This document shows positions 33,418-46,920 of a stretch of 64,000 nucleotides of DNA, piece by piece. Below the pieces are notes generated by a model. It was not told the origin of the DNA, did no database searches, and saw only the letters and a list, made by a program, of their open reading frames with translations. Source of the DNA: Micromonospora olivasterospora (GTDB lineage Bacteria > Actinomycetota > Actinomycetes > Mycobacteriales > Micromonosporaceae). The stretch covers positions 6,014,001-6,078,000 of the forward strand of contig NZ_VLKE01000001.1 of NCBI RefSeq assembly GCF_007830265.1, in the 5' to 3' direction. The translations under genes were made by a program, and so were the position numbers. The first letter of the stretch is position 1. The number at the start of each line of letters is the position of its first letter.

Positions 33418-37114
<3,697 letters not shown>

Positions 37115-44180: not shown

Positions 44181-46334
44181 TCAGGGTGTCGTGAGGATGA
44201 CGAGTTGCTGGGTCGCTCGGGTCATCGCGACATAACGGTCGACCGCTCCCTCGATGCCCGTGCCGAACGCCTCGGGGTCGACGAGGACCACCAGGTCGAA
44301 CTCGAGTCCCTTAGCCAGCTCCGGGGTCAACGAGCGGACGCGGGACGTCGACTGGAACGTGGGGTCGCCGATGACGCAGGCGGCTCCCTCGGCGTGCGCG
44401 GCGAGCCAGCCGTCGAGGATCGAGCCCAGGTCCGACACGGATCCGTGTACGACGGGCACGTCGTTGCTGCGGATGGAGGTCGGCACGTTGGCGTCCGGCA
44501 GGACGGCCCGGATGACCGGCTCGGCCTCCGCCATGATCTCTCTCGGCGTGCGGTAGTTGATGGTCAGCGAGGCCAGGTTGATGCGGCCGAGCCCGATCCG
44601 CTCGAGCCGCTCCTGCCAGGACTCGGTGAACCCGTGTCTGGCCTGGGCGCGGTCCCCGACGATGGTGAAGCTCCGGGACGGGCAGCGGAGCAGCAGCATC
44701 TGCCACTCCGCGTCGGTCAGTTCCTGAGCCTCGTCCACGACGATGTGCGCGAACGGGCCGGCGAGCCGGTCCGGATCGACGCCGGGCAGCGCCGTCTCGT
44801 CGACCAGGGCGTCGTGGAAGTCCTCGCCACGAAGCATCGTCACGAGGCCCACACCGTATTCGTCGTCGACGGCCTCGATCAGGTCGTCCACGACCCTGGT
44901 CATGCGCGCGCGTTCGACGGCGACGGCGGCCTCGTGCCGGCGCTTACGCCCTGACGCCTCCGGGTCGCCGAGCCGCTGCCGCGCCGCGTCCAGGAGCGGC
45001 AGGTCGGACACCGTCCAGGCCTGGGCGTCGCCGCGCTGTAGCTTCCGGACCTCGTCGGCGCTGAGCCACGGGGCGCACTTTCGCAGGTAGGCGGGCACGG
45101 ACCACAGGTCTCCGACGAGGTCGGCCGCGTCGAGCAACGGCCAGGCGCGGTTGAAGGTCGCGCGCAGTTCCCGGTTTCGCAGCAGCGACCTGCGGACCAG
45201 GTCGTCCGGCTCGTCGCCGTCGTACCGGTCCAGCAGGATCGTGAGTAGTTCCGCCCAGATCTCGTCACGCGCCTCGTTGTGCGGGGTACCGGGCCCCGGC
45301 GCCTCGAACGCCTCGGCCCAGTCGTCGGCGCTCAGCCGAATGTCGGAGTCGTCGGTCGTGACGGTCATCCCCTTGGCCGGTGGCTCCTCGTAGAACCTGA
45401 CGGCCGCCTCGATCGCCCTGACCAGGTCCGCGGACGACTTCAGCAGGGCCACGTCCGGGTCGGTCTCGATCGCTGCCGTGGCGCCCTCGGGGACGAGGTC
45501 GCGCAGGGTGCAGATCTGCACGTCCTCCTCGCCGAGGCTGGGGAGGACGTCGGCGACGTAGGTCAGGTAGGGCTGGTGCGGGCCGACGAACAGCACGCCG
45601 CCCCGGCGGGGACCGAGACGGGGCTCGGAGTAGAGGAGGTACGCGGTGCGGTGCAGGGCGACGACGGTCTTCCCCGTACCCGGACCGCCGTCGACGACGA
45701 GAGCGCCACGGGATCCCGCGCGGATGATCGCGTCCTGGTCGGCCTGGATGGTGCCGAGCACATCCCGCATCCGGTGCGACCGGGTGCCGCCCAGGCTGGC
45801 GATGAAGGCGGACTGGTCGTCCAGCGCGGCGTGCCCTTCGAACCCGTCCTCGGTGAACACCTCGTCCCAGTAGTCGCTGATCCGGCCGCGGGTCCAGCGG
45901 TACCTGCGGCGGCTCGCCAGGCCCATCGGGTTGGCGTGGGTCGCTCCGAAGAACGGCTCGGCCGCGGGGGAACGCCAGTCGAGCAGCAGCCGACGACCCG
46001 CGCCGTCCGTCAGGCCGAATCGTCCGACGTACACGGGCTCGGGATCGTCCGCGTTGACCATGCGCCCGAGGCACAGATCCAGACCGAAGCGGCGCAGGGC
46101 GCGCAGGCGAACGGTCAACCGGTGGATCTCCATGTCCCGGTCCAGCGCCTGCTGGCCCGTGCCGCCAGGCGCCTTGCGCTCGGTGTCGAGCCGGTCGGAC
46201 AGGTCGGCGATCGACTGCTCGAGGCTCTCCGCGATGGCTGCGAAATGCCGCTCGTCGCCGGCGATCAGCCTCGGGTCGGCCTTGGGAGAGAGGTGGTCGG
46301 GAAGGTCGAACGCGCTGCTGGTCAGCGGGTTCAC
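44181..46334 (-). CDS. helR: HelR-type RNA polymerase recycling ATPase (rifamycin resistance)
   Basis: A 717-residue UvrD/Rep-like superfamily 1 ATPase of the HelD/HelR class. N-terminal coiled arm (ERHFAAIAESLEQSIADLSD), then VYVGRFGLTD and LLLDWRSPAAEPFFGATH, Walker A VVDGGPGTGKTVVALH (216-223), Walker B IVVDEAQELTDAEWQMLLLR, motif IV INYRTPREIMAE and VAMTRATQQLVIL near the end. HelR proteins bind RNA polymerase and displace rifamycins. The RFG.TD and WRSPAAEPFFGATHANP signatures fit HelR better than generic UvrD. GTG at 46334 has GGAG 8 nt upstream. A rifamycin-associated element lies 116 bp upstream. Confidence 0.87.
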   Translation of the reverse strand: MNPLTSSAFDLPDHLSPKADPRLIAGDERHFAAIAESLEQSIADLSDRLDTERKAPGGTGQQALDRDMEIHRLTVRLRALRRFGLDLCLGRMVNADDPEPVYVGRFGLTDGAGRRLLLDWRSPAAEPFFGATHANPMGLASRRRYRWTRGRISDYWDEVFTEDGFEGHAALDDQSAFIASLGGTRSHRMRDVLGTIQADQDAIIRAGSRGALVVDGGPGTGKTVVALHRTAYLLYSEPRLGPRRGGVLFVGPHQPYLTYVADVLPSLGEEDVQICTLRDLVPEGATAAIETDPDVALLKSSADLVRAIEAAVRFYEEPPAKGMTVTTDDSDIRLSADDWAEAFEAPGPGTPHNEARDEIWAELLTILLDRYDGDEPDDLVRRSLLRNRELRATFNRAWPLLDAADLVGDLWSVPAYLRKCAPWLSADEVRKLQRGDAQAWTVSDLPLLDAARQRLGDPEASGRKRRHEAAVAVERARMTRVVDDLIEAVDDEYGVGLVTMLRGEDFHDALVDETALPGVDPDRLAGPFAHIVVDEAQELTDAEWQMLLLRCPSRSFTIVGDRAQARHGFTESWQERLERIGLGRINLASLTINYRTPREIMAEAEPVIRAVLPDANVPTSIRSNDVPVVHGSVSDLGSILDGWLAAHAEGAACVIGDPTFQSTSRVRSLTPELAKGLEFDLVVLVDPEAFGTGIEGAVDRYVAMTRATQQLVILTTP

Positions 46335-46449
46335 GGCATCAGCTCCGATCTGGGGCCGCTCGCAACCGGTGCGCGCGGCGAGGCGTTCTCGGTCCTGGCT
46401 CCACGCTCCCCAGGTCCCGGCCTCGGCCAGCGATTCTGCGGCACGACCC

Positions 46450-46468
46450 GGGTCTTGCCGCAAGCCCC
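46450..46468 (-). promoter_or_regulatory. Rifamycin-associated element (RAE) upstream of helR
   Basis: On the minus strand the sequence is GGGGCTTGCGGCAAGACCC, a 19-bp imperfect inverted repeat (CTTGC/GCAAG arms). As I recall it, the RAE described upstream of actinomycete rifamycin-inactivation genes is GGGGCTTGCGGCAAGGCCC, which differs at one position. AT-rich sequence (AACATATAG, minus strand) follows on its distal side. Confidence 0.85.
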
Positions 46469-46683
46469 CAGGTGCGCTATATGTTGAGAGTGGCAGGGAG
46501 TAGGTGGTTCCCCTCCCTTCGTCGGCCACGGCGAAAGACAATCCCCTCGGCGGCAGGCGCCGACTCGAACGTGACCCACTCCCCCGTGTTCTCGCGAGTG
46601 CGACGTCGTGCCGGAACGCGTGCTTTCAGAAGCCTCGACAGACGCCGGCGGCAGACGACTTCGACGTCGATGCCGGGGGTGAC

Positions 46684-46875: not shown

Positions 46876-46920
46876 ATCTTGGACAGTTGCCGTCAGCTGC
46901 TGACGAGAACTGTCCAAGAT
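46876..46920. repeat. 45-bp palindrome, probable abutting IS ends
   Basis: ATCTTGGACAGTT (46876-46888) and AACTGTCCAAGAT (46908-46920) are exact complements. Inside them GTCAG (46892-46896) pairs with CTGAC (46900-46904). Each half resembles an IS terminal inverted repeat (TTGGACAGTT-nn-CGTCAGC), and they sit just 5' of the IS5-type transposase fragment. Confidence 0.6.

Follow-up and report, generated by a model that had tools for sequence, protein, structure and literature searches.

The rifamycin-associated element (RAE) of Actinobacteria has reportedly been the subject of studies by Spanogiannopoulos (2014), Surette (2022) and Hurst-Hess (2022). Excerpts of three papers describe it as a 19-bp palindrome that precedes rifamycin resistance genes and is probably bound by a factor (PMC10719064, PMC8655204, PMC10194278). 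In M. smegmatis, the RAE overlaps the −35 region of the mapped promoter P2, and another promoter, P1, lies about 20 bp upstream of the element (excerpts of PMC10719064). The excerpts of PMC12802891 (2026) and PMC10719064 leave the sensing mechanism of the RAE open and consider a factor. The closest described case outside this group, in the excerpts of PMC12802891, is the dual-promoter rifampicin alarm of B. subtilis helD and pps, in which an antisense promoter with a 19-bp spacer makes a short terminated RNA and keeps helD low until rifampicin arrests that promoter. The B. subtilis promoters are convergent, with starts 39 bp apart, and induction is lost once this distance is cut by 17 bp, so that the polymerases would clash (excerpts of PMC12802891).

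We analysed a stretch of 64,000 nucleotides from Micromonospora olivasterospora (the window), in which an RAE lies upstream of a helR gene and reads as the core of a mirror-like promoter pair for the main sigma factor (Table 1). The element differs at one base from GGGGCTTGCGGCAAGGCCC, which we take to be the RAE consensus, and its position is the single place in the window with an RAE-like match at up to three mismatches, against a chance expectation of 0.09 in shuffled windows. The preliminary description had thus placed this minus-strand site correctly, one base off the consensus; its position upstream of the HelR-type gene also holds, the distance to the GTG start of helR being 115 bp and not the 116 bp given there. 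Exact GGGGCTTGCGGCAAGNCCC occurs at two places in the 7.07-Mb genome, namely the helR site and a site (L002) before a rifampin phosphotransferase-like gene (792 bits on 441 of 864 model positions, whole-protein cut-off 999). A copy with two mismatches (L003) lies upstream of a second rox, a rifampin monooxygenase gene (853 bits, cut-off 800), and another with two mismatches to GGGGCTTGCGGCAAGNCCC (L004) lies within a coding frame and has no promoter boxes.

Table 1. Features of the helR upstream region and its neighbourhood (window coordinates; PS, predicted rightward resistance-gene promoter; PA, predicted leftward promoter).
Feature	Position	Strand	Basis or remark
rox, rifampin monooxygenase gene without RAE; neighbour, outside the element	34937..36415	-	834.6 versus cut-off 800
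helR, RNA polymerase-protecting motor ATPase HelR, GTG start	44181..46334	-	NCBIfam motor_HelR
Predicted PS transcript start, in helR relatives CGGCCGAGGCC..ACCTGCGGAAA; partly kept in the window	46399..46428	-	
PS predicted start site	near 46424-46427	-	
PS -10 box CAGAAT, 19 bp from TTGCGG	46433..46438	-	A2 and T6 kept in 117/119 listed sites
RAE GGGGCTTGCGGCAAGACCC	46450..46468	-	interpreted as a pair of overlapping -35 boxes with GGG/CCC arms
PA -35 box TTGCCG	46455..46460	+	
PS -35 box TTGCGG	46458..46463	-	sequence; 19-bp spacing conserved
PA -10 box TATGTT, 19 bp from TTGCCG	46480..46485	+	TAnnnT in 95% of 119 listed sites
PA predicted start site	near 46490-46493	+	
Weak hairpin where the predicted PA RNA begins; position of the relatives' terminator-like hairpin	46495..46518	+	

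The locus shares with the RAE of the literature the palindrome itself, its place upstream of a resistance gene and its overlap with the −35 region of a sense promoter, whereas the unit seen here spans about 115 bp and has a leftward promoter-like half, often with a terminator-like hairpin. Titles, abstracts and passages of open-access papers, the primary RAE and HelR papers not among them, mention neither a promoter nor a terminator on the leftward side of the element, which is no proof of absence. The likeness to the B. subtilis alarm lies in an antisense promoter with a 19-bp spacer, here TTGCCG-19-TATGTT, conserved at the sequence level. A short terminated antisense RNA may be a further point of likeness: a terminator-like hairpin stands in register in 102 of 178 relatives and is weak in the window. 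The layouts differ, however: the RAE promoters are divergent and share their −35 region, and there is no convergent sense promoter upstream. When such a promoter was sought at −95 to −40, TAnnnT was present in 4 of 178 sites, and a convergent arrangement of the B. subtilis type was rejected.

To define the extent of the conserved unit, we stacked 58 helR loci carrying an RAE (up to two mismatches) and the window on the element without gaps. The 59 sequences are conserved from about −45 to +70 around the RAE (CCAcTctcAAC.TATAgCGcaccgG-[RAE]-.gGtcgTgcCGCAgAATCg.cggCCgaggcC), and the own-genome copies at the phosphotransferase gene and at the second rox contain the same block. A conserved unit of about 115 bp, readable as a mirror-like promoter pair and reaching well beyond the 19-bp RAE, is well supported. 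The RAE contains TTGCGG on the helR strand (rightward) and TTGCCG on the opposite strand (leftward), overlapping in the middle, and its GGG/CCC arms are nearly invariant. At two sites (G415:C1:3479737 and G492:C45:97490) the outer arms read CGG...CCG; the palindrome and both boxes are kept there, and the outermost letters can thus co-vary.

We measured the two-box geometry on RAE sites collected by the core pattern GGGNCTTGCNNCAAGNCCC alone, not by their boxes. This core is found in 38 of 396 genomes of a phylum sample and in 90 of 101 genomes of the genus; the sites originate from twelve families in the phylum sample and from several gene families, and they are related by descent, so that the counts are not independent. 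In the first scored set (119 sites among the matches listed, L099–L217), xAxxxT stood at exactly 19 bp from TTG on both strands in 116 sites. At other spacings between 10 and 27 bp the fraction with xAxxxT was 0.00–0.05, except for values of 0.16 and 0.36 (sense) and 0.42 (antisense). Of nine listed sites added later, six have the exact 19-bp spacing, and in the remaining three both boxes fall at 17–19 bp; combined, among the matches listed, both boxes lie at exactly 19 bp in 122 of 128 sites and at 17–19 bp in 126. The exceptions to the exact spacing are L127, L283, L286 and L288 (17–19 bp), L161, which has lost its right box and precedes a truncated phosphotransferase gene, and L125, which has no boxes and is probably a chance match. 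Most rightward boxes read CANAAT. In the leftward box, T1, A2 and T6 are kept in 95% of the 119 sites and the inner letters vary (TACGTT, TATGTT, TAAGTT, TACATT, TATCCT and others), as in actinobacterial −10 boxes. The left box also fits xAxxxT when read in the sense direction, and TAnnnT so read in 52 of 178 sites. We take it as leftward because of its spacing from TTG, its T1 and the leftward hairpin.

A converse search of the 101 genus genomes used geometry only (ANNNTA-N16-TTGNNNCAA-N17-ANNNT) and left the RAE arms open. The pattern was present in 95 genomes, and a reversed control pattern gave 2 matches. Among the 150 matches listed, 144 carried the core NGGNCTTGNNNCAAGNCCN and five were one letter off, so that geometry alone, with the arms ignored, finds almost only RAEs (149 of 150). 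In the own genome, it has exactly three matches: the helR site, the site of the phosphotransferase gene and that of the second rox. The sole match without an RAE core among those listed is G425:C14:58090.

Just downstream of the predicted leftward start, many relatives carry a hairpin, e.g., GGCAAGGAG-NNNN-CTCCTTGCC followed by T. We scanned 178 sites for it (two of 180 were dropped as duplicates or too near an end, and the nine sites added later are absent from these counts). A permissive scan detected a hairpin at score 10 in 169 of 178 sites versus 124 shuffled, and at score 14 in 129 versus 24, with 280 G.U and 111 A.C pairs. A strict scan, in which G.U and A.C were treated alike, detected a stem in register in 102 sites and none in 76. 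Read as leftward RNA, the stems have 897 pairs, 823 of them Watson-Crick, 56 G.U and 13 A.C; the bias of G.U over A.C has a binomial p of 1.7e-7, a statistic that ignores descent. Such a strand bias speaks for an RNA transcribed leftward. The first three bases of the tail after the hairpin are T at frequencies of 0.55, 0.75 and 0.72, and A at 0.02–0.08. In single-case folding, L002 and L003 reached z scores of −2.9 and −1.8, and the window hairpin, at −0.26, is weak and does not exceed shuffled sequence. Two arr sites (L104 and L109) and some of the phosphotransferase sites (e.g., L145 and L149) have no such hairpin by eye.

Comparison across genomes gives good support to the anatomy of the sequence, to its conservation and to the genes it accompanies. 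On these grounds, we propose, with a probability of roughly 0.6, that rifamycin induction depends on which promoter the polymerase chooses, the resistance promoter or the leftward one, which is often a dead end. The weak hairpin of the window, the 76 sites with no stem in register and the 22 of 29 HelR_2 loci with no RAE within 1.5 kb weigh against this proposal. The palindrome would supply one −35 box per strand, with a −10 box 19 bp further out on each side. PS would transcribe helR, and the position of the M. smegmatis RAE over the −35 region of P2 fits PS; P1 of that species is unaccounted for by the PS/PA model. Of the two −10 boxes, that of PA is the better one, and many relatives have what would be an intrinsic terminator stopping its RNA at about 35 nt, so that PA would be a dead end. 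A polymerase on one of the overlapping −35 boxes should keep a second polymerase off the other, and competition between the two promoters is likely on this layout. In a drug-free cell, PA would occupy the site and helR would be kept low; rifamycin would disturb the use of PA, free PS and allow helR to be made, and HelR would then remove the drug from RNA polymerase. The phosphotransferase gene and the second rox, at their own sites in the genome, would be released in the same way. We infer that both promoters are active and compete, and that the drug shifts their balance. Compared with a palindrome possibly bound by a factor, the mirror-like promoter reading offers a precise, testable architecture.

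Plain mutual exclusion was rejected as the full mechanism: in a toy steady-state calculation with arbitrary parameters, it gave no induction (a ratio of at most 1). Induction appeared under the extra assumption that the terminated polymerase tends to reload on the dead-end promoter and the drug-bound enzyme leaves. In an extended form of the proposal, Actinobacteria would sense rifamycins through RNA polymerase itself and would need no transcription factor dedicated to this. The enzyme would idle on the dead-end promoter, terminating after about 35 nt and reloading at once, and the rifamycin-bound enzyme would break this loop and open the site to the resistance promoter. We hold this extension tentatively and think it somewhat less probable than its opposite. 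If true, Firmicutes and Actinobacteria would share one principle in convergent and divergent layouts, respectively.

A factor bound to the RAE is the main and a live rival to a sensor consisting of polymerase only. As a classical operator, the 19-bp palindrome would bind a transcription factor dimer, either a rifamycin-released repressor or an activator, that controls PS, and the leftward box would either belong to a more extended operator or be a by-product. The palindromic form with its nearly invariant GGG/CCC arms is what such an operator would look like, and a factor is also what the excerpts of PMC12802891 and PMC10719064 propose. The left and right boxes, however, differ in sequence and have only xAxxxT in common, and their distance slips to 17–18 bp at some sites, as promoter spacers do; the leftward hairpin, with its strand-specific G.U pairs and T-rich tail, likewise argues against it. 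Moreover, a regulator was the matched gene in 0 of 148 typed sites (among the matches listed, for genes with a reference match), unlike the case of many self-regulated factors. We consider the operator a possible explanation, though a rather doubtful one. The promoter pair and a bound protein may be combined: the near-invariant GGG/CCC arms, which are dispensable for the −35 boxes, suggest a bound protein, and a further protein on these arms may take part. Control at the RNA level, through alternative 5′ leader hairpins of the RAE and downstream bases (attenuation or a drug-binding RNA), is very improbable. Pairing between the RAE and the bases that follow it is possible in the window (46437-46462) and in many helR relatives (by eye), but the predicted PS start is downstream of the RAE, which places the element outside the PS RNA. 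The second partner strand is not the same in different genes of one genome (GTGCCGCA versus GTGGCGCA); it differs among helR, the phosphotransferase gene and rox, and such sense-leader hairpins were dropped for this reason. No known RNA family exceeded the Rfam threshold (two chance-level matches lie elsewhere in the stretch), and excerpts of PMC10719064 describe helR induction as transcriptional.

The product of the gene behind the RAE matches motor_HelR with 1291 bits (cut-off 750), and HelR_2 (436) and HelD_MYCSM (400) both stay under their own cut-offs, which confirms its earlier assignment as HelR-type. In pairwise alignment, its best solved-structure match is M. smegmatis HelD (6yxu), and its closest named relative is in Micromonospora sicca (88% identical); three other HelD-like genes of the genome are 33–39% identical to helR in the best piece. 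Compared with HelR/class II HelD, the window protein is an ordinary member with no notable difference seen. With the RAE upstream of this HelR gene, the locus is therefore probably one of putative rifamycin-inducible target protection.

A rox-type gene does lie near helR as previously reported, at about 7.8 kb and over its model cut-off; the frames between the two match a LacI-type regulator, a sugar-binding protein, a DapA-like lyase, a nucleoside hydrolase and a ribokinase. The window rox has no RAE at up to three mismatches and no twin promoter. A half RAE site near 36685 (seen by eye) before this gene has no boxes and was rejected. The RAE-bearing second rox lies at 5.64 Mb, 0.4 Mb away, and, at 918 bits, is better than the window rox. 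Within the genus, helR is present in 64 and rox in 79 of 101 genomes, own genome included (E up to 1e-150). Of the 53 genomes with both, two, this genome and G400, have helR and rox on one contig at a distance of up to 30 kb, in a comparison made by eye at the same E-value limit, and fragmented assemblies may hide further cases. The rifamycin resistance island of two genes that had been proposed is thus rejected, given a window rox without RAE or twin promoter, an RAE-bearing rox elsewhere and closeness in 2 of 53 genomes. What stands of the preliminary description is the pairing of RAE and HelR, now within a conserved unit that extends far past 19 bp and has a leftward promoter-like half. In G400 (G400:C310:21113-24939), rox and helR stand in tandem behind a single RAE, bringing drug destruction and target protection into one unit.

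Among 80 helR loci of other genomes, 58 have an RAE (up to two mismatches) in the first 600 bp upstream. When the remaining 22 were followed up to 5 kb, 18 had a core RAE at 0.95–2.2 kb upstream, 14 of which precede an rgt-like frame lying before helR (by eye). In L024, the RAE lies just past the first 600 bp, L076 is cut by a contig end, and L057 and L092 have no RAE within up to 5 kb upstream of helR. L029 has a one-mismatch RAE in the first scan that fails the stricter core pattern. In all, a core RAE lies upstream in 76 of the 80 loci (58 within 650 bp and 18 at 0.95–2.2 kb), and both boxes are present in 75 of these 76. For HelR_2, we used 29 loci from the order, of 30, that were over the cut-off. 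An RAE with up to one mismatch was found in 7 of them, six within 700 bp (five with both boxes) and one at 1.3 kb (with both boxes), i.e., both boxes in 6 of the 7; the other 22 have no RAE within 1.5 kb.

We typed the genes behind the 119 listed sites by tblastn to a few reference proteins. The partners were rph-like (38), helR (33), rox (27), rox-like (8), arr (5), rgt-like (3) and a PPOX-like frame (2), and three sites had no match: L125 (probably chance), L128 (helR 2.3 kb further on) and L161 (a truncated rph, by eye). Twenty further geometry matches were rph-like (12), rgt-like (4), helR (3) and rox (1), so that 20 of 20 precede a gene resembling a known rifamycin resistance gene. The nine added sites were rph-like (7, two with a rox-like piece ahead) and rox-like (2). 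The gene at L104 is over the rifampin ADP-ribosyltransferase cut-off (205 versus 130), and the Rgt-like gene at L116 is under the Rgt cut-off (495 versus 800). The rox-like reference, L105, scores 453 versus the rif_monoox cut-off of 800 and may not be a true Rox. Together with nine relatives (including L126, L289 and L290), it forms a rox-like FAD monooxygenase family behind RAEs, which is perhaps a rifamycin-modifying candidate.

The frame at L186 is a PPOX-class F420-dependent oxidoreductase (147 versus 85.6). Such a gene lies between RAE and helR in L186, L189, L251 and L019 and is a possible further RAE-driven gene. In the own genome, a short frame (VRVLVSMYGGRGDCEP...) lies between the RAE and the phosphotransferase gene (L002:1325-1500, C1 at about 6.2944 Mb). 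It resembles the start of an rgt-like glycosyltransferase and is, by this likeness, a putative remnant of an older gene behind the same promoter. Its motif occurs in 1 of 38 other rph-like sites (L188), and a similar piece is present in L239. In the window itself, the gap upstream of helR also holds an inverted repeat of 13 bp at 46876-46920 (ATCTTGGACAGTT...AACTGTCCAAGAT).
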